Below, piece after piece: positions 34,869-47,861 of a stretch of 64,000 bases of DNA. The notes beneath the pieces are model-generated. The model saw nothing but the letters and a program-made list of their open reading frames with translations. It did no database searches and was not told the DNA's origin. How positions within the stretch are numbered: position 1 is the first letter of the stretch; each line of letters begins with the position of its first letter. The stretch spans positions 1 through 64,000 of the forward strand of contig JABCZO010000018.1 in the NCBI GenBank assembly GCA_013289615.1, in the 5' to 3' direction. Origin of the DNA: Gammaproteobacteria bacterium (GTDB taxonomy: Bacteria; Pseudomonadota; Gammaproteobacteria; Steroidobacterales; Steroidobacteraceae). The translations under genes and the position numbers were made by a program.

Positions 34869-35141
34869 GATTGTCTCCGCACGCACTGGATGCTGCAGTG
34901 TGACGGATCGAGGCAGGCAGTTGCCAGTGCCTGCCCGGTGATCGCGGCCACCAGCGTTGCTTGGCAACCACAAGAGAGCGCACACGCGCAAATGCACTGA
35001 TCGAGTGCCTTCAGTGTCACCGATGCACCGTGACGATACCGACGAAATACTCGCGTCGACCAGAGCGCTTCTAGCACTGCAAGACTGCTATATTTGATGC
35101 ATCGCAAGTTCTTTCAATCCATCGCAGGGGAGGCGGTGATC
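34869..35141. other. Divergent promoter region, amidohydrolase / TonB receptor
   Basis: This 273-bp gap separates two divergent starts in the amine block and must hold both promoters. I see a strong ribosome site (GGGGAGG) before the receptor start but no clear sigma-70 boxes or operator. Confidence 0.5.
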
Positions 35142-37589
35142 ATGAGAACGAGATTCCGTTATTCGACGTCCGCGCGTACCTGCGTGAATCCTGTTGGTCA
35201 TTCAAGACAGTCGTCGTTGCATGCTGGCGTGCGCGTCGCCATCGTGTGGGGATCGGGTTTGATATCGGCGTTCTATCTTGCGCCGCGCGCGCACGCGGAT
35301 CTGCCCACCACTGCCCCCGACCTGGGTGGGCTCACCGAGGTCGTCGTCACCGCCGAGAAATTCAAGTCGACGATTCAGGAAACGCCGATCAGCATGTCAG
35401 CGCTGAGCTCCAGCCAGCTCGAAGCGCAGGGCATCACAAATGTCGAGGACATCGCGCGCGACGTTCCGGGCCTATCGATGCGCTCGGCCGGACCGGGCCT
35501 CACCGAATACGACGCACGCGGCCTGGCCTCGAACGGCGGCGCGGCGCCGACCGTCGGCTTTTATCTCGACGAGATCCCGCTGTCACCGCCCGCACTGTCG
35601 CAGTCCGGCAAGGTCGTGATCGACCCGGATCTGTACGACATCGATCGCGTCGAAGTGCTGCGCGGCCCGCAGGGCACGCTGTACGGCTCGGGCTCGATGG
35701 GCGGCACGGTCAAGGTCATCACAAAGCAGCCGAAACTCAACCAGTTCGAGGGTTCGGCGCAGGCCACGGTGTCGGATACCGAGGGCGGCGGCGCCAACGG
35801 CAACGTCAGTGCGATGCTCAACCTGCCGCTGGGCGACAAGTTCGCGCTGCGTATCGTCGGCAGCGACCTGTACCGCAGCGGCTGGATCAATCTGATCGCC
35901 GTCAATGTGCCGAACGCCGCGACCACGCTGAAGACGCCGAACCAAACGCCGGTCTATGACGCGCCGGTTACGAGCGTGATCCCGCGGGCCAACGCCGAGC
36001 ACATGCGGGACGGACGCGTGACGCTGCTGTTCCAGCCCAACGAGGATCTATCGATCACCGCGATGGCCTTGGACCAGCGCCTGTCGATGGGTGGCTACGA
36101 CCTGCTGGATTCGAGCCCGACCAGCGCGGCACCCGGTAAGGTATACAACGCGCACTACGAGGTGTTCCCACTGCGCGAATATCTGAATGACGACGTGCAG
36201 ATATACGGCCTGACGATCAATGCCAACGTCGGCTTCGCCGACCTGACCAGCGCGACATCGTACTTCACGCGGCTCAATCACCAGGCGCAGGACGCGTCCG
36301 AGTCGCTGTATTACTCGAACGTGTTGAACGGCGTGCCGCAGGCGCCGCTCGCACCCAATCTGTACCACGAGGTCGACCCGTCGCACCAGTTCAGCCAGGA
36401 ACTGCGCCTGACCTCGCACGATATCGGCGCGCTGCACTGGGTGGCGGGTGCGTTCTGGAGCAGCCTGAAATCGATCTGGAACGAGATCAGTAACAGCCCG
36501 CTGAACGCGACGCCGACTATTCCCGACGGCTCGTACTTCACCTCCTGGAATCCGTACTGGGTGCGGCAGACGGCGCTGTTTGCGGACGGCTCGTACAAGT
36601 TCGACGATCATTGGAAGCTCGCCGCGGGCGTACGCTGGTACACCTACAAGAGCGAGCAGCACGAGTTCTCGTGGGGCCTCGATGCCCCCTACCCGAACCA
36701 GGCGGTCACCCCGACCCAGGTCACGCGCGCCTCGGACAGCGGCTTCAACCCGCGCGTGAACCTGTCCTACGAGCCCACGCGCGACCTGAACCTGTACACG
36801 ACCATATCCAAGGGCTTCCGGCCGGGCGGTGCGAACCAGATTCTGCCGAGCGGCCCGCCGATCAACTGCCAGCCCGGCGTGCTCTCCTTCAGTCCCGACG
36901 AAGCCTGGAACTACGAGGTCGGCGAGAAAGCGAAGCTGCTCGACAATCGGCTGACGATCAACGGCGACGTCTACTACATCCGCTGGCTGGGCGTGCAGCA
37001 GGTGATCACGCTACCTTGCGGCTACCAGTACTACAACAACGCCGGCGACGGCCGCGCCTACGGCCCGGAGCTCGAGATCAACGCCAAGCTCGCCCCGGCC
37101 TGGACCATGTCGGTGGGCGGCGCGTACACCGACTCGAAGATCACCTCGCCCAACGCCTCGTTTCAGAACTACCTGTCGACAGTGGCATCCACCCCGAACG
37201 GCGTTACGCGGCCGTGTCCGGTGACCGGCAGCTGCACGGTGCCGATCCTGAACGTGCCGAAGGAGACCGCAAGTGCATCGCTCGCCTATACGACCGAGGT
37301 CTTCGCCACCTACCAGCTCACGGCGCGCGTCGACGATTCCTTCGTCGGTCCGGCGACCGACGTCGCCTACTTCTTCGGCTACCGTCTGCCCTCATACAAC
37401 ATCGCCAATCTGCACGTGATCCTCGATCATGGTCCGTGGTCGGTTATCGGCTTCGTAACCAATTTCACCAACAAGGTGGCGCTGATCACCGCGAACAACA
37501 CCAGTTTCCAGTTCAACATCCCGCAGACCGTGCGCTACTCGACCAATCAGCCGCGCACCTACGGCATGCAGGCCAACGTCAAGTTCTGA
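35142..37589 (+). CDS. TonB-dependent outer-membrane receptor
   Basis: From ATG 35142, nine bases after GGGGAGG, the product is 815 residues. A long leader ends in a signal peptide (VAIVWGSGLISAF, then PRAHA). The TonB-box-like EVVVTAEK precedes the plug domain (ISMSALSSSQLEAQGITNVE, VEVLRGPQGTLYGSGSMGGT). The 22-strand barrel ends in the usual aromatic residue (GMQANVKF). The type resembles Sphingomonas/Xanthomonas receptors for plant or xenobiotic compounds rather than ferric siderophores. It lies 39 bp upstream of the amine dehydrogenase heavy chain on the same strand, linking uptake to oxidation. Confidence 0.94.
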   Translation: MRTRFRYSTSARTCVNPVGHSRQSSLHAGVRVAIVWGSGLISAFYLAPRAHADLPTTAPDLGGLTEVVVTAEKFKSTIQETPISMSALSSSQLEAQGITNVEDIARDVPGLSMRSAGPGLTEYDARGLASNGGAAPTVGFYLDEIPLSPPALSQSGKVVIDPDLYDIDRVEVLRGPQGTLYGSGSMGGTVKVITKQPKLNQFEGSAQATVSDTEGGGANGNVSAMLNLPLGDKFALRIVGSDLYRSGWINLIAVNVPNAATTLKTPNQTPVYDAPVTSVIPRANAEHMRDGRVTLLFQPNEDLSITAMALDQRLSMGGYDLLDSSPTSAAPGKVYNAHYEVFPLREYLNDDVQIYGLTINANVGFADLTSATSYFTRLNHQAQDASESLYYSNVLNGVPQAPLAPNLYHEVDPSHQFSQELRLTSHDIGALHWVAGAFWSSLKSIWNEISNSPLNATPTIPDGSYFTSWNPYWVRQTALFADGSYKFDDHWKLAAGVRWYTYKSEQHEFSWGLDAPYPNQAVTPTQVTRASDSGFNPRVNLSYEPTRDLNLYTTISKGFRPGGANQILPSGPPINCQPGVLSFSPDEAWNYEVGEKAKLLDNRLTINGDVYYIRWLGVQQVITLPCGYQYYNNAGDGRAYGPELEINAKLAPAWTMSVGGAYTDSKITSPNASFQNYLSTVASTPNGVTRPCPVTGSCTVPILNVPKETASASLAYTTEVFATYQLTARVDDSFVGPATDVAYFFGYRLPSYNIANLHVILDHGPWSVIGFVTNFTNKVALITANNTSFQFNIPQTVRYSTNQPRTYGMQANVKF

Positions 37590-37628: not shown

Positions 37629-38816
37629 ATGCGGGGGTGGTTTGCCGGCATGTCGGCCGCGGGTGTCGCCGCGGGCGCACTCGTGCTCGCGCTGCCGGCG
37701 TTTGGCGCTGACCCGGACGATCTGGCCGCGGACGCGAAGCTGCAGCTCGCCGAGTCGCACGTCACTGCGACGCTGACGCCGACGCATGCGCGGCGCCTGT
37801 TCGTCCTCGATGTCGCGTTTCCGGCAGCCGAGGCGGCCAGGACCTACGTTCTGGACGGCGCCACCGGCCGCATCGAGGGCATGTTCAACCAGGCGTACTG
37901 GCCGAACTTCGCGGTGTCGCCTGACGGCAGCGAGCTCTATGCCGTCGATTCCTACTGGGAGAAGCACACGCGCGGCAAGCGCAGCGACTACATCGTGGTG
38001 CGCGACGCGCGTACGCTGCAGGTCAGCGAGGACATCCCGCTGCCGGCCGGGCGGCTGCTGATCGTCTCGAAAAAGTACGATTTCGACGTGACGCCCGATG
38101 GGCGCTATGGGCTGACCTACAATCTTGCCCCGCAGACCACGGTGACGGTCACCGACCTCAAGGCGCGCAAGAGCATCGGCACGATCGGCATCCCGGGCTG
38201 TGGCCTCATCTTCGCGCAGGCCGCGAGCCGATTCTCCTCGCTGTGTGCCGATGGCGCGATCGCCACCGTGACTTTCGACGAGTCCGCCAATGGCACGATC
38301 AGGCGCACCGCGAACGTGTTCGATGCGAAGAACGACCCGGCGTTCGAGCACTCCGGGTGGGACAAGCACCATCAGATGCTCTACCTCGTGACCTACCATG
38401 GCAAGGTGGTGCCGGTGGACCTGGCGGGCGAGCAGGCGGTCGCGGGCCCCAGCTGGTGGCTGACCGACGAGGCGGAGCGCCGCGCCGGCTGGCGGCCGGG
38501 CGGCTGGCAGGTGTGTCACTTCCATTCCTCGAAACGCCGGCTGTATGTGCTGATGCACCGTGGTGGCGACTGGACGCACAAGAATTCGGGCACCGAGGTG
38601 TGGGAGTTCGAAGCCACGACTGGCAGGCGCGTCCAGCGCGTGCGGCTGCCCGAGCCGGCACAATCGATCGCGGTGTCGCAGGACGACGATGCCCTGCTGT
38701 ACGCGATCGGCGACAGCTACCGGATCTACGCGTTGGGGCTTGCGACCGGTAAACTGCTCTATAAGACCAGGCCGCTCGGCTTCACGCCGCAGCTCCTGAC
38801 CGTGTGGGGTGACTGA
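37629..38816 (+). CDS. mauB: TTQ amine dehydrogenase heavy chain (MauB/AauB-like)
   Basis: The 395-residue protein has a signal peptide (GVAAGALVLALPAFGA) and is a seven-bladed beta-propeller: YWPNFAVSPDGSELYAVD, FDVTPDGRYGLTYNL, then the family hallmark GGWQVCHFHSSKRRLYVLMH with GTEVWEFEATTGRRVQRV. Heavy chains of methylamine and aralkylamine dehydrogenases form alpha2beta2 periplasmic complexes with the TTQ light chain. Whether this is the MADH or the AADH branch cannot be decided by eye. GGAG precedes the ATG. MauE, MauD and the light chain follow in the canonical order. Confidence 0.9.
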   Translation: MRGWFAGMSAAGVAAGALVLALPAFGADPDDLAADAKLQLAESHVTATLTPTHARRLFVLDVAFPAAEAARTYVLDGATGRIEGMFNQAYWPNFAVSPDGSELYAVDSYWEKHTRGKRSDYIVVRDARTLQVSEDIPLPAGRLLIVSKKYDFDVTPDGRYGLTYNLAPQTTVTVTDLKARKSIGTIGIPGCGLIFAQAASRFSSLCADGAIATVTFDESANGTIRRTANVFDAKNDPAFEHSGWDKHHQMLYLVTYHGKVVPVDLAGEQAVAGPSWWLTDEAERRAGWRPGGWQVCHFHSSKRRLYVLMHRGGDWTHKNSGTEVWEFEATTGRRVQRVRLPEPAQSIAVSQDDDALLYAIGDSYRIYALGLATGKLLYKTRPLGFTPQLLTVWGD

Positions 38817-38817
38817 G

Positions 38818-39378
38818 ATGCTCGATACGCTGCCACACCTGACGCTCGCGCTCGCACTGGCGGTGCTGTTCGCGGCCTCGGCTGTGCACAAACTTCGAGC
38901 GCGCGAGCAGTGGCCGGCCATTGTGCGCCAGTACCGGCTGCTGCCCGACGTGCTGGTCGCGCCGATGGCCGCCCTGTTGCCCCTCGCCGAGGCGCTAGCG
39001 GCGGCCGCTCTGCTCTGGCCGCGCACACGTGCGGTGGGCGCGCTCACCGCCGCGGCGCTGCTGCTCGCCTATACGTGCGCGCTGGCGATCAACCTGCGCC
39101 GTGGCCGCGCGTCGATCGACTGCGGCTGCTTTGCGTCGCGACGGCGCCACGGCATCGCACCGTGGATGGTGGGCCGCAACCTGGTGCTCGCGGCCCTGGC
39201 GCTCGCACTGCAGATGCCCACCGACGGGCGTGCGCTCGGCGCGGCCGAGTGCGGCCTCGCACTGGCCTTCGTCGTGACGTTTGCGTTCCTGTACCCGGTG
39301 CTGGAGATCGTGCTGCAGCCAGCGCCGCCGAGCTTCGACGACAACCTGCGCGCCAGCCGGGCGCGGCTCGGCCTGTAG
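38818..39378 (+). CDS. mauE: MauE, membrane protein for amine dehydrogenase maturation
   Basis: The 186-residue integral membrane protein has four to five hydrophobic helices and the family's cysteine pair in SIDCGCFASRRR. The ATG overlaps the end of the heavy chain region (stop at 38814-38816, start two bases later). In Paracoccus MauE and MauD are needed for disulfide formation and stability of the light chain. The C-terminal region is slightly longer than I expect and ends in a basic tail. Confidence 0.88.
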   Translation: MLDTLPHLTLALALAVLFAASAVHKLRAREQWPAIVRQYRLLPDVLVAPMAALLPLAEALAAAALLWPRTRAVGALTAAALLLAYTCALAINLRRGRASIDCGCFASRRRHGIAPWMVGRNLVLAALALALQMPTDGRALGAAECGLALAFVVTFAFLYPVLEIVLQPAPPSFDDNLRASRARLGL

Positions 39379-39387
39379 GTCACGGTC

Positions 39388-40014
39388 ATGGCGAGCGCAC
39401 TGCCCTACGTCATTGCGATCCAGATCGTGATCTCGCTGGCACTGGCGGTGCTGGTATTTGCGCTCGCGCGCCAGGTCGGCGTGCTGCACGAGCGCATTGC
39501 CCCGATGGGGGCCATGACCAGCGACCACGGCCCGGCGGTCGGCGAGCTCGCACCGCCGCTCAGCATGGTCACGCTCGCCGGCGAGCGCATCGAGATCGGC
39601 GGCCCGAGCGCGCTGGCGCGCAGCCGGCTGCTGCTGTTCGTGTCGGCGTCGTGCCCGGTGTGCAAGAAGCTGCTGCCGATCGCCCGATCGTTCGCGAGCG
39701 CCGAGCGCCTGCAGGTCGTGCTGGTTGGGGACGATGAGCCCGCCGGGCAACGCGCGATGATCGAGCAGTTCCAGCTCGAGCAGCTGCCGTACGTCAATTC
39801 GCCGCAGGTCGGCATGGCATATCAGGTCGGTAAGCTGCCGTATGCGGTACTGATCGACGCGCAGGGAGTCATCCGCGCCAAGGGTCTGGTCAACAGTCGC
39901 GAACACCTCGAAAGCCTGATCGTCGCCGAGGAGAGCGGCTTCGGCACGATCCAGGCCTATCTCGCCGCGCGGCGGATCGCCGGCCGCGATCAGAGCGAGG
40001 TCAGGCACACATGA
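39388..40014 (+). CDS. mauD: MauD, thioredoxin-like maturation protein
   Basis: The 208-residue protein has an N-terminal membrane anchor (VIAIQIVISLALAVLVFALA) and a periplasmic thioredoxin-like domain with the redox motif in LLFVSASCPVCKKLLP. The cis-proline region is VGKLPYAVLIDAQG. MauD is thought to guide disulfide formation in the cysteine-rich light chain, which the gene overlaps by four bases. Confidence 0.9.
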   Translation: MASALPYVIAIQIVISLALAVLVFALARQVGVLHERIAPMGAMTSDHGPAVGELAPPLSMVTLAGERIEIGGPSALARSRLLLFVSASCPVCKKLLPIARSFASAERLQVVLVGDDEPAGQRAMIEQFQLEQLPYVNSPQVGMAYQVGKLPYAVLIDAQGVIRAKGLVNSREHLESLIVAEESGFGTIQAYLAARRIAGRDQSEVRHT

Positions 40015-40577
40015 CGCCGATCTCCAGCACCCGGTTCGACCGCCTGATCGAGGCGTTCACGCGCGGGGCGGCGCAGCGCAGCTCGCGCCGCGGCTTCCTG
40101 TCGCAGTGCGGGCTGTGGCTGATCGCCGCCTCGGCGCTGCCGCTGCTGCCGGTCGCGCGCCGCGCGCAGGCCGGCGAACAACCGGCCGGCAAGCCGGTGC
40201 GCAAGTTCGCCTCTGCGTTTGCCAACCTGGCCCAGACCAGCGATTCGACGCGCTGCAACTACTGGCGCTACTGTGCGAGCGACGGCTACCTGTGCGCGTG
40301 TTGCGGCGGTGGACCGAACACCTGTCCGCCCGGCACCTCGCCGTCGCCGACATCGTGGATCGGCTCGTGCATCAATCCGGACGATGGCAAGACCTACCTG
40401 ATCGCGTACCGCGACTGTTGCGGCCAGGACTCGTGCGGCCGATGCTTGTGTCTCGGCCAGGAAGGCGACATGCCTTCATACCGGCCGCAGGTCAATAACG
40501 ATATCGTCTGGTGCTTCGGCGCCTCGAGCATGGTCTACCACTGCTCGAGCGCGGGCCTCGTCGGCCTCGCGGAATAG
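40011..40577 (+). CDS. mauA: TTQ amine dehydrogenase light chain (MauA/AauA-like)
   Basis: The 188-residue precursor has a twin-arginine signal (SSRRGFLSQCGLWLIAASA). Aligned by eye with the Paracoccus light chain, W116 and W167 match TTQ-forming Trp57 and Trp108 (51 apart in both), D135 matches catalytic Asp76 (AYRDCCG) and D91 matches Asp32. All 12 cysteines of the six disulfides are present (C178 shifted by a two-residue gap). Two further cysteines, C98 and C142, sit where the Paracoccus protein has serines. The enzyme would deaminate a primary amine to an aldehyde and pass electrons to a c-type cytochrome. No mauG, needed for TTQ synthesis in Paracoccus, is nearby. Confidence 0.95.
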   Translation: MTPISSTRFDRLIEAFTRGAAQRSSRRGFLSQCGLWLIAASALPLLPVARRAQAGEQPAGKPVRKFASAFANLAQTSDSTRCNYWRYCASDGYLCACCGGGPNTCPPGTSPSPTSWIGSCINPDDGKTYLIAYRDCCGQDSCGRCLCLGQEGDMPSYRPQVNNDIVWCFGASSMVYHCSSAGLVGLAE

Positions 40578-40586
40578 GAGCCTCGC

Positions 40587-41144
40587 GTGCGACGGCGGCA
40601 ACGGGCGGGAAGCGTGCCGGGGACGCTCGCGAGCGCGCTGGCGCTGTCGATCGCGCTTTCGAGCATCAGCGGCAGCGGCCGGGCTGCCCCGCCGGCCAGC
40701 AACGTACCTGACAGCGTGACGCGCCGCTCGGGCCTTACGCTCGCGCCGATGCCGCGCGCGGCGCAGCTCTACGCCACCAACTGCCAGGGCTGCCACGGCG
40801 AGCTCGGCAGTTCCGCGGCCGAGATGCCGACACTTGCCGGGCGCGTCGGATATTTCACCCGCATCCCGGAAGGCCGTCGTTACCTGGTGCAGGTGCCGAA
40901 CGTTGCCCTCAACGCGAACTCCGATGCCGACATCGCCGCGGTGCTCAACTGGCTGCTCGCGACCTATAGCCGCGCGCAGTTGCCGCCGGACTTCAAGCCG
41001 TACACGGCCAGCGAGGTCGGCGAGCTGCGCCAGGCGCGCATCGACGTCGCGGCGACCCGGCGACGCGTCATCGATGCGCTCGTGGCCGCCGGCCAGGTTC
41101 CGTCAGCCGATGCGCTCGCCCTGCCGCACATTGTGCTCTACTGA
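40587..41144 (+). CDS. Monohaem c-type cytochrome, amine dehydrogenase cluster
   Basis: The 185-residue protein starts with GTG behind GGAG. It has a signal peptide (LASALALSIALSSISGSG) and one haem site at residues 66-70 (CQGCH) followed by EMPTLAGRVGYF. With only one CxxCH it is not the dihaem MauG. It resembles short cytochromes placed beside aralkylamine dehydrogenase genes, and the probable role is to accept electrons from the light chain. Confidence 0.85.
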   Translation: MRRRQRAGSVPGTLASALALSIALSSISGSGRAAPPASNVPDSVTRRSGLTLAPMPRAAQLYATNCQGCHGELGSSAAEMPTLAGRVGYFTRIPEGRRYLVQVPNVALNANSDADIAAVLNWLLATYSRAQLPPDFKPYTASEVGELRQARIDVAATRRRVIDALVAAGQVPSADALALPHIVLY

Positions 41145-41163
41145 GCGCCTCGAGACTGCGTCC

Positions 41164-41496
41164 GTGCCCGCCATCACCCGAGGATTGCTCGTCTGCTTAG
41201 CCTCAGTGCTGCCGGCGGGCGCGCTCGCGGCGCCCGACCGCGTCGCCCTGGGTGGCGAGAAGTATGTCCAGTGCGCCGCCTGCCACGGCGCGGACGGGCG
41301 TTCGACCGTGATCCCGCAGTACCCGAAGATCGGCGGCCAGTCGGGGCCGTACGTCGTCAACGCGCTCAAGGCGTACCGCGACGGCCGGCGCCAGGGGACT
41401 TACGCGGCCGTCATGGCGGCGGTCGCAAAGCCGCTGACCGATGATGAGATCGAGAACCTCGCGGCCTACATCGAGTCGCTCGACACCGTAAAATGA
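41164..41496 (+). CDS. Small c-type cytochrome (class I)
   Basis: From GTG 41164 the product is 110 residues, with a signal peptide (LLVCLASVLPAGALA) and a haem site CAACH at 37-41. The body is that of a c4/c5-like domain (YPKIGGQSGPYVVNALKAYR) with the axial Met probably in YAAVMAAVAKPLTDDEIENL. It is likely the second electron carrier between amine dehydrogenase and an oxidase. The start is uncertain because no clear ribosome site is present. Confidence 0.8.
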   Translation: MPAITRGLLVCLASVLPAGALAAPDRVALGGEKYVQCAACHGADGRSTVIPQYPKIGGQSGPYVVNALKAYRDGRRQGTYAAVMAAVAKPLTDDEIENLAAYIESLDTVK

Positions 41497-41519
41497 CATC
41501 GGCGGAGGCAGCAACGACC

Positions 41520-41912
41520 ATGGCGAAACTCATTCACTCGATGATTCGCGTGCTCGATCTCGAGCGCTCGGCCCGGTTCTATCGACAGGGCTTCGGCCTC
41601 GAGGAGTCGCACCGCCTCGAGTTCCCGACCTTCAAGCTTCTGTACCTGCGCGATGCGGACAGCGGCTGCGAGATCGAGCTCACCTGGAACCAGAGCCAGG
41701 CCGAGCCGTACACGCACGGCACCGGCTACGGCCACGTGGCCTTCTGCGTCGACGATATTGCCGCGCACCGCGACATGATGCAGCGCCTCGGTTACGCACC
41801 CGGTGACATCAAGTCGCTGGCCGCGCCCAATGGGTCGGCGCGCTTCTATTTCGTCACCGATCCCGACGGCTACAAGATCGAAGTACTCGAGCGCGCCGGC
41901 CACTACGTCTGA
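41520..41912 (+). CDS. VOC-family (glyoxalase I-like) protein
   Basis: From ATG 41520, 11 bases after GGAGG, the product is 130 residues; an ATG at 41493 overlapping the cytochrome stop is an alternative. The fold is the glyoxalase I type: HSMIRVLDLERSARFYRQGF, then GYGHVAFCVDDI and VTDPDGYKIEVLER with metal-ligand positions His, Glu, His, Glu. Lactoylglutathione lyase or aldehyde detoxification is plausible given the aldehyde-forming enzyme upstream. Its 3' end overlaps the convergent permease by ten bases. Confidence 0.83.
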   Translation: MAKLIHSMIRVLDLERSARFYRQGFGLEESHRLEFPTFKLLYLRDADSGCEIELTWNQSQAEPYTHGTGYGHVAFCVDDIAAHRDMMQRLGYAPGDIKSLAAPNGSARFYFVTDPDGYKIEVLERAGHYV

Positions 41913-43309
41913 TCGCGCGGCTCGCCGGACGGCATCGGCGACGCCCGGCTGTACTCCGGCAACGGAGCTGCCGCGAGCGCCGGTCGCAGCCGGATGAGCA
42001 GCAGCGCGCTCGCAACCCATGCGAGCGTGACGTACGGCCACAGGTTGTTCGGGAACTGCGGCACCGGGTAAACGTTGCAATAGAGCACCCACAACAGCAG
42101 CAGTGGTCCGAGCGCGCAGGTGGCCGCCCACCAGCGCCGGCCCTCACGCCGGGCCTCGATCACCTCGGCACCACCGACACCGATATAGATGAGGAGCAGC
42201 GACAGCGCGCCAGTGGTGCTGGTGTAGCTGTAGTAGTTTCCGGCGCCGGCGAACGGCGCCCACAGCAGGAACGGCACGATGATCAGCAGCGCGGTGACGG
42301 CGATGGCTGGCGCAGGCGTGCCATGGACCGGATGCACTTCGGCAAGCCGGCGCCACAGTCCCACGCGGCCGAGCGCGTACAGCACGCGCCCGCCGGCGGC
42401 GATCGCCCCGATGGCACCCGAAAAGCACGTGGTCGCGGCCGCAAGATCCAGTGCGATCGACAGGCGCGCGGACACGTAGCGCCGCGACAGCACGTCGAGC
42501 GGTGCCTCGGAATTGGCGAGCTCGCGCATCCCCTGCGGCCCGAATCCAACGACCTCGCAGTAAGAGACGAAGGTGAAGAACACTGCGCACAGCAGTACCG
42601 CACCGATGAGGGCCACCGGAATCGCGCGCCGCGGGTTGATGGTCTCCTCGCCGAGCGTGGCCGCACCCTCGAAGCCGGCGAACGACAGCATGCTGAACAC
42701 CATCCCGAAGCCGAGGCCGACCCAGCCGTTGAAGGCCCGGGCCGGGCGGAAGCTCTCCGCCAGCCGTTCGCTGCCCGGGTGGACCTTGCGCAGGATCGCG
42801 ATGCACAGAAAAATGATCGCGACCATCGCCAGCGCCTCGAGCGCCAGCATCACGCGGCCGGCGAGCCGCATGTCCTGGTAGGCGAGCCGCCACGCGAGCA
42901 GCAGTGCCACCACGCCAATCACCAGCCACGAGCCGCCACCGCCGCCGATCCCGAGGTCCTTGAAGGCGGCCATCGTGAAGCTGCCGACCAGCGCGGCGAA
43001 GCCGGTGCCGAAGCCCAGATAGGTGAGCAGCAGCGCCCAGCCGGCGACGAATCCCGCCCGGCTGCCGAAGGTGTGCGTGATGTAAGCGTAGGCCGAGCCC
43101 GCGTGCGCGACGCGATGCGTGAACGCCATGAACGACAACGCGATCAGCACGGTTGCCGCCGCGGCGATCACGAATGCCAGCGGCGCGGCCGCCCCGGCGG
43201 CGCCCACGACCAGCGTGATATTGAAGGCCGCGGTGACGGTAGGCGCGACCACAGCCAGGGAAAGCCCCAGGGCCTCGAGCAGAGTGAGGCGCTTGATCAG
43301 TACAGCCAT
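41903..43309 (-). CDS. APC-family amino acid/amine permease
   Basis: From ATG 43309 the product is 468 residues with 12 predicted helices. The APC signature is present in helix 1 (LGLSLAVVAPTVTAAFNITL) and helix 6 (SMLSFAGFEGAATLGEETIN). It would import an amino acid, polyamine or other amine with protons. It sits between the TTQ dehydrogenase operon and the aminotransferase gene on the minus strand and may be co-transcribed with the latter (59 bp apart). Confidence 0.88.
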   Translation of the reverse strand: MAVLIKRLTLLEALGLSLAVVAPTVTAAFNITLVVGAAGAAAPLAFVIAAAATVLIALSFMAFTHRVAHAGSAYAYITHTFGSRAGFVAGWALLLTYLGFGTGFAALVGSFTMAAFKDLGIGGGGGSWLVIGVVALLLAWRLAYQDMRLAGRVMLALEALAMVAIIFLCIAILRKVHPGSERLAESFRPARAFNGWVGLGFGMVFSMLSFAGFEGAATLGEETINPRRAIPVALIGAVLLCAVFFTFVSYCEVVGFGPQGMRELANSEAPLDVLSRRYVSARLSIALDLAAATTCFSGAIGAIAAGGRVLYALGRVGLWRRLAEVHPVHGTPAPAIAVTALLIIVPFLLWAPFAGAGNYYSYTSTTGALSLLLIYIGVGGAEVIEARREGRRWWAATCALGPLLLLWVLYCNVYPVPQFPNNLWPYVTLAWVASALLLIRLRPALAAAPLPEYSRASPMPSGEPRDQT

Positions 43310-43368
43310 CGATCCTTGCTGCCGACCGCGCCCCAATGCGGTGGCGGTATCTCACTGAAAATCATAGC

Positions 43369-44730
43369 TCACCACATCATGAACGGCGCCACGTCCGCAT
43401 CCGCAACCAGGCCGCGGCCGACATCGGTCAGCGCCTGATCGATGATCGCGACCCCGTGTTCAGCCTCGGCCTCGGTCAGCGTCAGGGGCGGTGTGAGCTC
43501 GAGCACGTTGCCGCGCAGGCCGACATAGAACAGCACGGCACCGAGCTGCCAGGCCCGATAGATGACCTTGGCGGTGGTCGCCACCGGGACTGGTTCGCGC
43601 GTGGCCCGATCGCTTACCAGCTCGATGCCGATCGCCAGTCCCCGACCGCGCACCTCGCCGATCATCGGTTGCCGTGGGGCGAGTGCGCGCAGTGCGCCGG
43701 CGAGCGCCTGACCGACACGGGCGGCGCGCTCGCTTAGGTCCTCGGCGGCGATCGTGCGCAGCACGGCCAGGCCGGCCGCGGTCGCGACTGGATTGCCGGC
43801 CGTGGTCTGCAGCGCGAACGCGGGTGCGTGGTCCATGATCGCGCGCGGGCCGATCAACGCCGACAGCGGCAGGCCGCCGCCGAGTCCCTTGCCGAACACC
43901 ACCAGATCCGGTTCCAGTGCCTCGTGCTCGAAGCAGTGCAACCGGCCGCTGCGCGCCAGGCCGGCCTTGACTTCATCGACGATGACCTGGATGCCGTGGC
44001 GGCGGCAGCGCTGCTGTACGGCGGCGAGAAAACCCTTGGGCGGCACGATGACGCCGGCGTCCGACATCAACGGCTCGATGAAGATAGCGGCCACCTGGTG
44101 CGGCGGACAGCTGGTTGCGAACTGGTAGTCCAGCAGCTTCAGCACCTCTTCCGCACTGAAGCTGGGTCGGTACGGATCCGGGTACGGCAGCAGCACCAGT
44201 CCCGCGCGTGGCAGCGTGTGCGTCATCGCCGTATGCCCGCTGACACTCATCGAACCGCTCAGATTGCCGTGGTAGGAGCCGATGAACGAGATGAAGCGCG
44301 AGCGGCCGGTGGCCGCCTGCACCACGCGCAGCGCGCAGTCGTTCGCATCCGAGCCGGAGTGGCCGAACCAGACCCGGCGCTCGCCCTCACCCGGTGTGAT
44401 CGCAAGCAGCCGCTCGGCCAGCGCCACCGCGTTCTCGTTTGGAAACGCCAGCAGGCTCGCCCCCGCCATGCTCGCGGTCGCAGCGTTGACCGCGGCCGCG
44501 ATCGCCGGATGGCTGTAGCCCAGGATCGCCGGTCCGAAGGAAGCCGACAAGTCGAGCAGCTCGCGGCCGCCTTCCTCGATCAGCCGGTTGCCGCGCCCAC
44601 CGATGAGGCTCAGCGGCGAGAAGCGCAGGCGGCCGATGCTGGCGATGACCTGCGCGTCGCGCTCGCGCAGCGTCGCAACGGGCGGGCGATGGCTGGTCGC
44701 CGGCGGGCGAGTGGCGTTATCGGCGCACAT
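43369..44730 (-). CDS. Class III (omega-amino) aminotransferase
   Basis: From ATG 44730 with AGGAG upstream the product is 453 residues. PLP-binding Lys is in LVVFGKGLGGGLPLSALIG; other marks are GPAILGYSHPAI, WFGHSGSDANDCALR, IGSYHGNLSGSMSVSG and VIVDEVKAGLARSG. Substrates in this class include 4-aminobutyrate, diamines, beta-alanine and amino sugars. Its context favours an amine-derived amino acid. It is divergent from the first isochorismatase-family gene across 190 bp. Confidence 0.9.
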   Translation of the reverse strand: MCADNATRPPATSHRPPVATLRERDAQVIASIGRLRFSPLSLIGGRGNRLIEEGGRELLDLSASFGPAILGYSHPAIAAAVNAATASMAGASLLAFPNENAVALAERLLAITPGEGERRVWFGHSGSDANDCALRVVQAATGRSRFISFIGSYHGNLSGSMSVSGHTAMTHTLPRAGLVLLPYPDPYRPSFSAEEVLKLLDYQFATSCPPHQVAAIFIEPLMSDAGVIVPPKGFLAAVQQRCRRHGIQVIVDEVKAGLARSGRLHCFEHEALEPDLVVFGKGLGGGLPLSALIGPRAIMDHAPAFALQTTAGNPVATAAGLAVLRTIAAEDLSERAARVGQALAGALRALAPRQPMIGEVRGRGLAIGIELVSDRATREPVPVATTAKVIYRAWQLGAVLFYVGLRGNVLELTPPLTLTEAEAEHGVAIIDQALTDVGRGLVADADVAPFMMW

Positions 44731-44920
44731 GGACGCGCTCCTCGCGACTGATCGTGACGGGCATCGGGGCGGTGATTGCGACCGCGCGCCACGAGCATAC
44801 GGGCTCCCATCGGCAGCTGCACTCTCCAACCCGATGCACTGCTACCATCGCCAGCCAATCGACCGATCGAGCGCGCCCGCCCGCGTGGCCGCCGCCGGTC
44901 GTGTGCTGGAGGCGGCGACG

Positions 44921-45628
44921 ATGACCACTGACGCACCCCTGTCCTGGAAGCGTGCCCACCGCTCGCTCTACTATGCGCTGGCACCGGAGCCCGCCGATCC
45001 GGTGCTCGAGCGCGGCAAGCTCGCGCTGCTCGTCATCGACGTGCAGAACGTCTACCTGAAGCGGCCCGATCCGGCGACGCTCGATGCGCCAGCGCGGGCC
45101 GCCTACGACGCCTGGACGCCATTTCACGAGCGCATGCACGGCATCGTGATCCCGGCCATCCAGGCGCTGCAGGCACGCTTCCGCGCTGACGGCCACGAGG
45201 TACTGTTCGCGCGCATCGCCTGCCACACCCGCGACGGCCGTGACCGCTCGCTCAGCCAGAAGCTGCCGGGTTGGAACAACCTGCTGCTGCCAAAGGACGA
45301 ATGGGAATCGCAGATCGTGCCGGCCCTCGCCCCGCGAGGCGATGAGATCGTGGTCACGAAGACCACCGACAGTGCGCTGACCGGCACCAACCTGCGGCTC
45401 ATCCTGTCTAACCTCGGCATCGCGCATGTGGTGTGCTGCGGGATCTTTACCGATCAGTGCATATCCTCGACGGTGCGCAGCCTCGCCGACGAGAGCTTTC
45501 AGGCCATCGTGGTCGAGGACGCCTGCGCCGCCGGATCCGACGCGCTGCATCGGCTGGAGCTGGAGATCATCAACATGATCTACTGCCAGGTGATGCGCAA
45601 GGATGACCTGCTCGGCTACCTGCCCTAG
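44921..45628 (+). CDS. Isochorismatase-family amidohydrolase 1
   Basis: From ATG 44921 (GGAGG eight bases upstream) the product is 235 residues. The cysteine hydrolase triad is visible: Asp in LLVIDVQNVYL, Lys in EIVVTKTTDSALTGTNL and Cys in CCGIFTDQCISSTVRSLAD. Members with Cys hydrolyse amides, such as N-carbamoylsarcosine, ureidoacrylate or nicotinamide. It is similar in plan to the convergent gene at 45674-46330, so they are likely paralogues acting on related amides. Confidence 0.87.
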   Translation: MTTDAPLSWKRAHRSLYYALAPEPADPVLERGKLALLVIDVQNVYLKRPDPATLDAPARAAYDAWTPFHERMHGIVIPAIQALQARFRADGHEVLFARIACHTRDGRDRSLSQKLPGWNNLLLPKDEWESQIVPALAPRGDEIVVTKTTDSALTGTNLRLILSNLGIAHVVCCGIFTDQCISSTVRSLADESFQAIVVEDACAAGSDALHRLELEIINMIYCQVMRKDDLLGYLP

Positions 45629-45647
45629 AAACCGGCCGGGCGGGCGG

Positions 45648-45668
45648 GCGCCGCAGCCGCAGCGGCGC
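45648..45668. terminator. Hairpin between convergent isochorismatase genes
   Basis: A seven-pair GC stem (GCGCCGC/GCGGCGC) with a seven-base loop lies in the 45-bp gap between convergent genes, where a bidirectional terminator is expected. There is no T-run. Confidence 0.4.
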
Positions 45669-45673
45669 GCTAG

Positions 45674-46330
45674 TCAATGCGGCGACAGGCGCGCTATCTC
45701 GTCCAGGATCTCGCGGGTCGAACGCTGCCGGCAGTAGCCGCTGTTGTTGCGTAGCGACCATTCGTGCCGCTCGGCTGACAGCGTGAGGCAGGCGTCCGTG
45801 GGCACGGTCACCAGATACCCGAGGTCGCAGGCATCGCGTACCGTCGAATCGACGCACTGGTCGGTCAGGCAGCCGGCAACGATCAGGTAGCGCGTGCCGA
45901 GATTGCGCAGCACGTAGTCGATGTTGGTAGAGATGAACACCGACGAGGAAGTCTTCGCGAACATGATCTCGTCGCCGGCCGGCGCCAGCGCGTCCACCAC
46001 CCTGGCATCGTACGAGCCCTTCGGTACGTTGAAACCGGTGATCTTGTAGTCGAGCGAGCGATCGCGCCCGTCGGCCGTGAGGCTCTCGATCACGGTGTAG
46101 GTGACTTCGATGTGTGCGCGCCGGCAGGCCTGCTGCAGCCGCACCATGTTCGGCAGCGCGCTGTCCTGAAAGACGCGAAAGAAGTACCCATAGCGCTCAT
46201 CGCGGGTCGCGGCGTCGAGTTGCGCGTACTCACCACCGGCCGGCAGGCAGTTGTAGTTCTGTACGTCCACGAATAGCAGCGCGGTGTGCGCCGGCTCGAT
46301 CTCGACTTCACGGCTCAAGGCATTACTCAT
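45674..46330 (-). CDS. Isochorismatase-family amidohydrolase 2
   Basis: From ATG 46330 (AAGGA upstream) the product is 218 residues. The triad is Asp in LLFVDVQNYNCL, Lys in EIMFAKTSSSVFISTNI and Cys in VAGCLTDQCVDSTVRDA. The lead and C-terminal RNNSGYCRQRSTREIL differ from paralogue 1. It follows the glutamine-synthetase-like gene by 28 bp on the same strand, suggesting that a ligase and an amidohydrolase act in one pathway. Confidence 0.87.
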   Translation of the reverse strand: MSNALSREVEIEPAHTALLFVDVQNYNCLPAGGEYAQLDAATRDERYGYFFRVFQDSALPNMVRLQQACRRAHIEVTYTVIESLTADGRDRSLDYKITGFNVPKGSYDARVVDALAPAGDEIMFAKTSSSVFISTNIDYVLRNLGTRYLIVAGCLTDQCVDSTVRDACDLGYLVTVPTDACLTLSAERHEWSLRNNSGYCRQRSTREILDEIARLSPH

Positions 46331-46358
46331 GGCTGTCCTTATGGAGACCGCGCTGCGC

Positions 46359-47621
46359 TCAATAGACTTCGGCGTAGCGGCGGCAAATCTCGCTCTCGTC
46401 GAGGGACTCAAGTGCCTGGTATTCGGCGCGCTTGAACAGCAGGTAGCCGGCCAGCAACTCAGCGCCGAACCAGTCCGTGGCCAGCGGTGTCTGCTGCAGC
46501 AGGGCCAGCGCCTGCGCCAGACTGCCCGGCAGCGCGCGGCGGCTGTTCGGGTCGATTTCGCGCCGGGCCCGGATACCGTCCACACCCGCCTGCACCACGG
46601 CTGCCAGCGCCAGGTACGGATTCGCGGTGGCGTCGCATACGCGGAACTCGACGTTGAATTGGCTGGCGTGCTGCGTCGGGTCGACGCCGTTCAGCGGTGC
46701 GACTCGAACAGCCGCGGCGCGATCGGCGCTGCCGATATCGGCGTGAACCGGTGCCCAGCGGTTCGGCCGCAGGCGGTAATAGGAGGCGACCGATGCGGCG
46801 GTCACTGCACAAAGGGCGGGCAGGTGGTGCAGGATCCCGGCGACGAAGTGGCGGCCGACGTCGGACATCTGCCATGGGCGCTGCGGATCGAACAGCACCG
46901 GATGCCCGTCGGCGTCGAGGAAGCTGAAGTGAATATGGGTACCGTTGCCGACGCCGTTGGGATCTGCGATCGGGGCGAAACTCACGGCCTGGCCGAAGCG
47001 GTAGGCGACGGCCCGGACCAGTTCACGCGTGATAACCGCCTCGTCGGCCGCCCGCAGCCCGATCGCCGGCGCGGTCGTGACTTCGAACTGGCGTGGGCCA
47101 TACTCGGCGAGGAACGAGTCGGGCACCACACCGGCCTGGCGCAGCGCGCCGAGCAGCACCTCGCCGAACAATCCCTGGCGCCTCAATCCCTCGAGTTCGT
47201 ACGGGCGCCAGGGATGCGCCGGCACCCCGTCGTAGGTGAACTCCTGCTCGAAGGTCGCATACAGCTGCAGACCGCTCTCGCGCCGCAGCGCCTCGAGCGC
47301 ACGGCGCAGCACCTGGCGTGGACAGAAGTTCCACGGCTCGCCGTCCGCGGTCCGGAGGTCCGCGATGAAGAAGTACTCGCTGGCACTGGCCTCGAACGGC
47401 ACCAATACGCGCGCAGCCGGGTCGGGCATCAGGAATACTTCGCCCACGGTTCCAAAGGTCGTCACCTGGATCGGGCCGAACGCCCCCAAGTAGAGGTTGG
47501 TCGGCGCCTTGCCGATCCCTCGCTGCAGCTTCACCGGCAGGTCCGCGGCCGGGAAGCTCTTGCCGCGAAAGTGAGCCGACAGGTCGCTGGTACCGACGAA
47601 GACGATCGGCTCGCGTTGCAT
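46359..47621 (-). CDS. Glutamine-synthetase-like ligase (gamma-glutamyl-amine synthetase type)
   Basis: From ATG 47621 the product is 420 residues; a GTG at 47645 is possible. The GS catalytic fold is clear: LYATFEQEFTY (metal Glu), GNGTHIHFSFLD (GxGxHxH metal/ATP loop), SYYRLRPNRWAP and NVEFRVCDATANPYLALAAV. It is shorter than GlnA, lacks the adenylylation-type tyrosine loop and begins VFVGTSDLSAHFRGKSFPA, a start seen in GS-like paralogues that join glutamate (or another acid) to amines. Ammonia or amine assimilation in the block is inferred; the substrate is unknown. Confidence 0.8.
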   Translation of the reverse strand: MQREPIVFVGTSDLSAHFRGKSFPAADLPVKLQRGIGKAPTNLYLGAFGPIQVTTFGTVGEVFLMPDPAARVLVPFEASASEYFFIADLRTADGEPWNFCPRQVLRRALEALRRESGLQLYATFEQEFTYDGVPAHPWRPYELEGLRRQGLFGEVLLGALRQAGVVPDSFLAEYGPRQFEVTTAPAIGLRAADEAVITRELVRAVAYRFGQAVSFAPIADPNGVGNGTHIHFSFLDADGHPVLFDPQRPWQMSDVGRHFVAGILHHLPALCAVTAASVASYYRLRPNRWAPVHADIGSADRAAAVRVAPLNGVDPTQHASQFNVEFRVCDATANPYLALAAVVQAGVDGIRARREIDPNSRRALPGSLAQALALLQQTPLATDWFGAELLAGYLLFKRAEYQALESLDESEICRRYAEVY

Positions 47622-47861
47622 CGAGGATGCGCCGGTGAGTATCACGGGACGGCCACCGGCAGATGGCGGTGCTGCGGCACCAGAACGCGCGCCTCTGACA
47701 TGAGTAAGCCTTCGATTACGGCCACGTCGGCCCGGCGGCTAGTGTCTCAGTCAAACTCAGACTCTGCCAGTCGTCGATAAGGCTTGCCTTGCGCCCGATC
47801 TTCGATCCCGACGGCGCGGCGCCAGCCGCCAAACCCATCCCGCTGCCATTACAATAGCTCG

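Follow-up and report, generated by a model that had tools for sequence, protein, structure and literature searches.

A one-haem cytochrome as a candidate TTQ maturase in amine dehydrogenase loci without mauG

It is known for Paracoccus that the di-haem enzyme MauG, which pairs a five-coordinate with a six-coordinate haem, finishes tryptophan tryptophylquinone (TTQ), and that MauE and MauD of the mau system assist the formation of the light-chain disulphides. The mau system of Paracoccus denitrificans (locus L132) comprises mauF, the genes B, E, D and A, the amicyanin gene, mauJ, mauG, napG/mauM and napH/mauN. The lack of mauG in aromatic amine dehydrogenase (AADH) clusters is already known. 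The aau cluster of Alcaligenes faecalis (aauBEDA and orf-2, which encodes a one-haem cytochrome) was reportedly described in 2001 without mauF, G, L, M and N, and recombinant AADH is said to have been made in Paracoccus with aauBEDA and orf-2. To our knowledge, the route to TTQ in AADHs without MauG has been an open question since that cluster was sequenced. An annotated aau cluster on a Pseudomonas plasmid (locus L133) contains aauB, mauE, mauD, aauA and two genes for cytochrome c-552. Here, a TTQ amine dehydrogenase operon was analyzed that lies on positions 1 to 64,000 of contig JABCZO010000018.1 from a gammaproteobacterium of the Steroidobacteraceae (GCA_013289615.1); this stretch of 64,000 nucleotides is called the window. 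The operon encodes a one-haem cytochrome, C1, which we consider a candidate for the enzyme that completes TTQ.

The genes for the heavy chain (B), MauE (E), MauD (D) and the light chain (A) have the same order as in P. denitrificans, and the structural operon in canonical order that the initial annotation had placed at 37629-41912 was confirmed by family models. It had also described the genes as overlapping, which holds for B/E and D/A, whereas E and D are separated by 9 bases. In contrast to the P. denitrificans system, the operon contains the cytochrome genes C1 and C2, and the window gave no mauF, mauC, mauJ, mauG, mauM or mauN match. As in L133, B-E-D-A is followed by two small cytochromes and mauG is absent, and the second cytochrome of L133 is a C1. 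The window differs from L133 in that C1 precedes C2 (C2b precedes C1 in L133) and a VOC gene comes next. By sequence, the product belongs to the TTQ amine dehydrogenases, i.e., the superfamily of methylamine dehydrogenase (MADH) and AADH, with matches to PF06433 and PF02975 and with W116, W167 and D135 in the light chain. Regarding mau-type systems, the window lacks mauG, mauF and mauJ beside the light chain, and its heavy chain scored 220.8 bits against TIGR02658, below the cut-off of 454.45; the light chain passes TIGR02659.

C1 and mauG beside TTQ light chains

None of the stop-to-stop open reading frames (ORFs) of at least 60 aa in the window carried two CxxCH motifs, and two ORFs of more than 80 aa carried one. 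This agrees with the initial annotation, which had noted two adjacent cytochromes with one site each and no protein with two. It had further considered that mauG lies elsewhere or that another enzyme does the job, and had named a whole-genome search for MauG homologues as a check. With PF03150 (CCP_MauG), 0 matches were obtained in the window's own genome (74 contigs, rated 82.93% complete), while the control, Paracoccus MauG, was found at 153.5 bits. A mauG gene just outside the window was rejected on the basis of this empty search of the assembly. In all, 95 genomes encoding a TTQ light chain were searched, and 38 of them were free of CCP_MauG matches, namely 11 of 22 relatives (the window's own genome included), 16 of 49 named genomes and 11 of 24 others; the remaining 57 carry at least one such protein. 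The 49 named genomes are those behind 50 of the 80 loci described below (L126 was left out, and the genome of L052 was added later). The CCP_MauG-free genomes include G204 and G313 (one contig each, rated 100% complete), G027 and G045 (rated 100%) and isolates such as those behind L098 (Novosphingobium fuchskuhlense) and L117 (N. nitrogenifigens). Since genomes rated 100% complete show the same, gaps in metagenome-assembled genomes were rejected as the sole cause of the missing MauG. Thus, of the two possibilities raised at the outset, another enzyme is the better supported one.

The distribution of C1 was determined with A3, a family alignment and profile of 46 C1 proteins, with a match of E <= 1e-12 counted as strong and with up to 40 candidates scored per genome for 98 relatives and up to 55 for 73 further genomes. 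All 22 relatives that have a light chain gave a strong C1 match, and none of the 76 that lack one did (best value there 8.5e-8). All 73 further light-chain genomes had a strong match, so that C1 accompanied the light chain in 95 of 95 genomes, including the 38 without a CCP_MauG match. Weak cytochrome matches were common among the relatives (75 of 98 genomes at E <= 0.001), but an artefact of a broad profile was rejected because the 76 relatives lacking a light chain all fell short of E <= 1e-12.

At the level of loci, genes were called from stop-to-stop ORFs with thresholds of our own choice (C1, 80 bits; phmmer, 1e-5), and light chains were taken as distinct by their first 95 mature residues. 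For the C1 hidden Markov model used here, 109 sequences from loci numbered up to L165 served as input, and matches to these are given by construction. The set held 153 distinct light chains, and 111 of these had at least 2.5 kb on both sides, a flank that may overlook a more distant mauG; the fragment L207 is counted in the 153 and is not among the 111. Of the 111 loci, 102 had C1 without mauG, six had mauG (with mauF and mauJ) without C1, three had neither, and none had both. Thus, the absence of MauG beside the light chain is the norm among the loci surveyed, and the initial view of an operon without mauG as an anomaly was not supported. No match to mauG, mauF or mauJ was found near any C1 locus in the flanking stretches examined. 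In 131 of 134 loci, the C1 haem motif followed the light chain downstream at a distance of 0–1500 bases, and 92 of 98 C1 loci had B, E and D matches next to the light chain.

At the three loci with neither gene (L052, L053 and L120), a heavy chain alone stands beside the light chain, and C1 is located elsewhere in their genomes. A3 matched 0 of 8 MauG-type records, which are plasmids and not whole genomes. Two MauG clusters without a mauC match (L134 and L251) lacked C1 too; the presence of C1 therefore goes with a missing MauG and not with a missing amicyanin.

The sample contains a bias, since 80 loci are the best 80 matches to the window from a contig scan; evenly drawn samples yielded fewer loci. 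In the latter, the window's own genome aside, 32 genomes had a full light chain (11 + 14 + 7 new); counted in the 14 are the centre of that sample, G117, and G098, which was known before, and the weak fragments G362, G387 and G674 were dropped. C1 was found beside the light chain in 31 of the 32, and in the remaining one (L292) the contig ends 30 bases past the light chain. Among the fetched loci of these genomes, a mauG cluster occurred only in G808, which has one C1-type and one MauG-type locus.

A tree of joined heavy and light chains was used in place of a light-chain-only tree. It covers 123 loci of the 146 distinct light chains then in the set (489 columns; quick search) and is unrooted, so that it does not give the direction of the swap between C1 and MauG. 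The six MauG-type loci form one side of a single branch (support 100). The window falls with them into a group of 65 rows (support 99), to which the P. denitrificans locus L132 also belongs, with three betaproteobacterial C1 loci as the nearest rows of the window (98), while L133, the one annotated aauA/aauB locus in the tree, lies outside this group. A tree of MADH and AADH chains had been proposed in the initial annotation, which had also pointed to aralkylamine dehydrogenase clusters as possible further cases without MauG. The operon is not simply a cluster of the aralkylamine type: B-E-D-A without mauG followed by cytochrome genes fits, whereas the heavy and light chains group with MauG-type MADH, apart from L133. 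The closest solved structures of the heavy chain were MADH heavy chains, followed by those of AADH.

Some loci had an unusual gene content. L052, L053, L120 and L008 are satellite loci, with heavy and light chain and no E, D or C1 found adjacent; in all four, C1 is located elsewhere in the genome. L295 (genome G932, 1.7 Mb) has a light chain and C1, and gave no heavy chain, MauE or MauD match within 6 kb. L226, on a Sphaerotilus plasmid, shows a partial light-chain match beside C2b and C1, with no heavy chain, E or D match, and looks like a decaying cluster.

Loss of the axial-methionine loop in C1

The best solved relatives of the C1 profile are entries of Thermus thermophilus cytochrome c-552. 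The match to 2fwl came in two pieces and skipped residues 52–72 of the chain, where the profile has three positions. For comparison, C2b was used, a c-552-like cytochrome encoded in tandem with C1 at a second TTQ locus of the same genome. C2b aligns through the c-552 loop stretch, its Met included. When 60 of the 67 non-redundant C1 sequences were aligned jointly with 26 C2b sequences, all 26 C2b had Met in the Met column and 59 of the 60 C1 had a gap there, the one exception being the additional cytochrome of L077. At the Met loop, 18 columns present in C2b are missing from C1. Likewise, the distance between a conserved Arg and a conserved Asn was 24–25 residues in C1 and 41–43 in C2b, as measurable in 152 plus 15 (by eye) of 196 C1 ORFs and in 12 of 78 C2b-like ORFs. 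Seven of 141 loci had their loop read by eye, and the stretch was short in all seven; the haem motif of L062 lies outside the frame of the short stretch, and L080 is cut by the contig end directly after it. L062 is an Asaia platycodi draft in which the C1 frame has no in-frame CxxCH part, owing to a draft error or a broken gene.

No conserved Met was found elsewhere in C1, as no column had Met in more than 33 of 92 non-redundant sequences. In the shortened stretch, Met occurred at one loop position in 15 of 152 sequences and at two positions beside the Asn of the last helix in 36 and 30 of 152. The stretch contains Pro69, which is invariant in A3. Thus, C1 is of the c-552 type by its CxxCH motif and by its relation in sequence and fold, and departs from it in the axial-methionine loop, with about 18 residues fewer than Thermus c-552, the axial Met among them. 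A model of C1 built from A3 (mean predicted local distance difference test score 90.2, predicted template modelling score 0.83) again had Thermus c-552 as its top Foldseek matches (E 3.6e-4).

Since C1 is without the axial-Met loop, its haem should be five-coordinate. In a passage of PMC10635480, the C14A/M69A double mutant of Thermus c-552 has a five-coordinate haem, which is ascribed there to the loss of Met69. The open haem pocket of MauG retains Gln103 and Pro107, as stated in part of PMC6405878, and a role of C1 Pro69 akin to that of the MauG pocket proline is a speculation. C1 is not itself a MauG or di-haem peroxidase: it has one CxxCH and 185 aa in the window, gave no match to PF03150, and its family members match only Cytochrom_C and Cytochrome_CBB3. 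What it would share with MauG is the proposed function. Two further arguments were dropped, the one for a peroxidase-like distal arginine because this Arg is also present in Thermus c-552, and the one for a single origin from a C1/C2b tree because of too few columns (2 label changes).

Proposed role of C1 and alternatives

We hypothesize that C1 finishes TTQ in the place of MauG, and give this about an even chance. The operon product would be a periplasmic TTQ amine dehydrogenase, with MauE and MauD helping to form the light-chain disulphides, as in the mau system. C1, and not MauG, would complete TTQ: peroxide or O2 would bring its open haem iron to a high-valent state, and this would oxidise the tryptophans of a light chain docked to C1, giving the second hydroxylation, the cross-link and the oxidation to the quinone. 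In this way, C1 would do with one haem what MauG does with two, and C2 would carry electrons away from the mature dehydrogenase. C1 accompanies the light chain where MauG does not, and the loss by which C1 is defined takes away the sixth haem ligand; the simplest reading is that C1 stands in for MauG. A wider claim may also hold, although we put it a little below even: in most TTQ-bearing bacteria, TTQ would be made by a one-haem c-552 turned peroxidase-like through the loss of the axial-methionine loop, and the MauG route would be the rarer variant on one branch. The survey yields one concrete maturase candidate with a structural reason to suspect catalysis. If the proposal is true, a single haem can finish TTQ where MauG uses two, and the loss of one loop can turn a common electron carrier into an oxidising enzyme. 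Among the titles and abstract openings listed by searches of openly accessible literature, no report linking a one-haem cytochrome to TTQ formation was found.

Several points weigh against a maturase role of C1. MauG presumably needs both of its haems and the intervening Trp, and C1 has a single haem. Since the MauG-type loci lie on one side of a single branch, the mutual exclusion of C1 and MauG may count as about one evolutionary event, and that side is small, with 6 distinct loci. Some CCP_MauG protein is present in 57 of the 95 light-chain genomes. The conserved Arg, Asn and Glu of C1 are common to ordinary c-552, which leaves Pro69 as the only invariant residue clearly its own, and its model holds no haem. 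In addition, C1 is the only same-strand one-haem ORF between -6 and +5 kb in 48 of 98 C1 loci, another such ORF with an MP motif occurs in only 32 of 98, and a crude blue-copper motif is near 3 of 98. C1 could therefore be the local electron acceptor in many loci.

This last point leads to the main rival and strongest counter-reading, in which the mature dehydrogenase passes its electrons to C1, as acceptor or first relay, and TTQ is finished by an unlinked enzyme other than CCP_MauG or by the dehydrogenase itself. The 48 loci in which C1 is the only such ORF nearby, the rarity of blue-copper motifs, the kinship of C1 with an electron carrier (c-552) and the position of its haem motif behind the light chain, which is often the place of amicyanin in mau clusters, favour this explanation. 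It is harder to reconcile with the loss of the axial-Met loop in 59 of 60 non-redundant C1, with the C2-like cytochrome match that 54 of 98 loci have within 6 kb (both strands counted), and with the absence of C1 from the two MauG clusters that have no mauC match. Moreover, azurin is a known acceptor of AADH, according to parts of PMC10890351 and PMC9547800. We consider an acceptor role possible, but rather unlikely. It was also considered that MauG is split, with C1 supplying the open haem and a Met-bearing neighbouring cytochrome the six-coordinate one; a six-coordinate haem and a five-coordinate pocket of MauG are spoken of in a section of PMC6405878. A gene for a Met-bearing cytochrome does lie beside C1 in the window and at the second locus, yet the 48 loci without another same-strand one-haem ORF nearby make such a division of labour improbable.

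A true mauG in the unassembled part of the genome, or an ordinary bacterial cytochrome c peroxidase acting from elsewhere, would be compatible with the completeness rating of 82.93% and with the CCP_MauG proteins in 57 of 95 genomes. The 38 genomes without any, including the four rated 100% complete (G204, G313, G027 and G045), and the absence of mauG, mauF and mauJ matches near C1 loci in the flanking stretches examined leave only a slim chance for it. Least probable is a light chain that is inactive or works without TTQ, as both tryptophans and D135 are retained throughout the light chains compared and B, E and D matches are adjacent in 92 of 98 C1 loci. The finishing of TTQ by C1 is the explanation that we prefer.

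Light chain, neighbouring genes and the second TTQ locus

The initial annotation had stated that the light chain keeps both TTQ tryptophans and the catalytic aspartates, and alignment to solved MADH and AADH light chains (3c75, 2i0r and 2agl; mature part) bears this out for W116, W167, D91 and D135. Following the naming in MADH work, we take W116 and W167 to be the TTQ tryptophans and D91 and D135 the catalytic aspartates. W116, W167 and D135 are conserved in 152 of 152 distinct light chains and D91 in 148 of 152. A degenerate light chain was rejected, as the TTQ residues are retained. By eye, the leader of the light chain contains a twin-arginine motif. The light chain in the window has Cys at positions 98 and 142 and Ser at position 179. 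Each of the two Cys is present in 132 of 141 C1-type and 1 of 6 MauG-type sequences, while position 179 holds Ser in 108 of 141 C1-type sequences and Thr in all 6 of the MauG type. The features of the operon are listed in Table 1.

Table 1. Positions of operon features and of selected codons and motifs in the window.
Feature	Position	Strand	Basis
TonB-dependent receptor	35094..37589	+	PF00593 116.6 bits, PF07715 74.5 bits
Amine dehydrogenase heavy chain (B)	37629..38816	+	PF06433 211 bits, over cut-off
MauE-like membrane protein (E)	38809..39378	+	PF07291 99.7 bits
MauD thioredoxin-like protein (D)	39388..40014	+	TIGR02661 219 bits, cut-off 188.6
TTQ light chain (A)	40011..40577	+	PF02975 168.3 bits, over cut-off; TIGR02659 204.8 bits, cut-off 196.85
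Codon of TTQ tryptophan W116	40356..40358	+	Trp in 152/152 light chains
Codon of TTQ tryptophan W167	40509..40511	+	Trp in 152/152 light chains
C1, one-haem cytochrome of c-552 type without axial-methionine loop, candidate TTQ maturase	40587..41144	+	A3 alignment, PDB profile match, model, locus survey
CxxCH haem-binding motif of C1	40782..40796	+	Sequence; both Cys and His invariant in A3
Shortened R62-N86 segment of C1 (c-552: ~18 residues more, axial Met included)	40875..40949	+	
Codon of invariant Pro69 of C1	40896-40898	+	
C2, small one-haem cytochrome c	41164..41496	+	PF00034 42.6 bits; GTG start 41164 picked by eye
VOC/glyoxalase-like protein, last gene of operon	41493..41912	+	PF00903 54.1 bits

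C2 is likely an electron carrier, to judge from its sequence, which has a Met ahead of the C-terminal helix (by eye). The heavy chain starts 39 bases past the TonB-dependent receptor gene on the same strand, and this gene is possibly part of the operon unit; TonB-receptor-like ORFs also lie near some of the related light-chain loci. At the other end, the VOC protein closes the operon, as first annotated, together with the suggestion that it might handle the aldehyde product. It is GloA-like, yet scored 127.5 bits against NF050074, for which the NCBIfam cut-off is 165. VOC-like genes near a light chain were also seen in L026, L058, L115, L116 and L118, and a link of the gene to a dicarbonyl product, e.g., methylglyoxal, is a guess only. 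The adjoining part of the window (41903-47645) encodes an amino acid permease, a class III aminotransferase, two isochorismatase-family proteins and a glutamine-synthetase-like protein, and is perhaps, by its gene content, an amine-use region.

The second TTQ locus of the genome lies on contig C20 (L003:5032-14088; also L001) and was absent from the initial annotation. One strand carries the genes for a heavy chain, a light chain, C2b, a C1 homologue and a TonB receptor. Nearby on the opposite strand, genes for an FAD oxidoreductase (DAO), a TauE-like protein, MauE (Pfam) and a MauD-like ORF (phmmer) were found. In the heavy- and light-chain tree, the C20 copy falls outside the 65-row group, as does L133.

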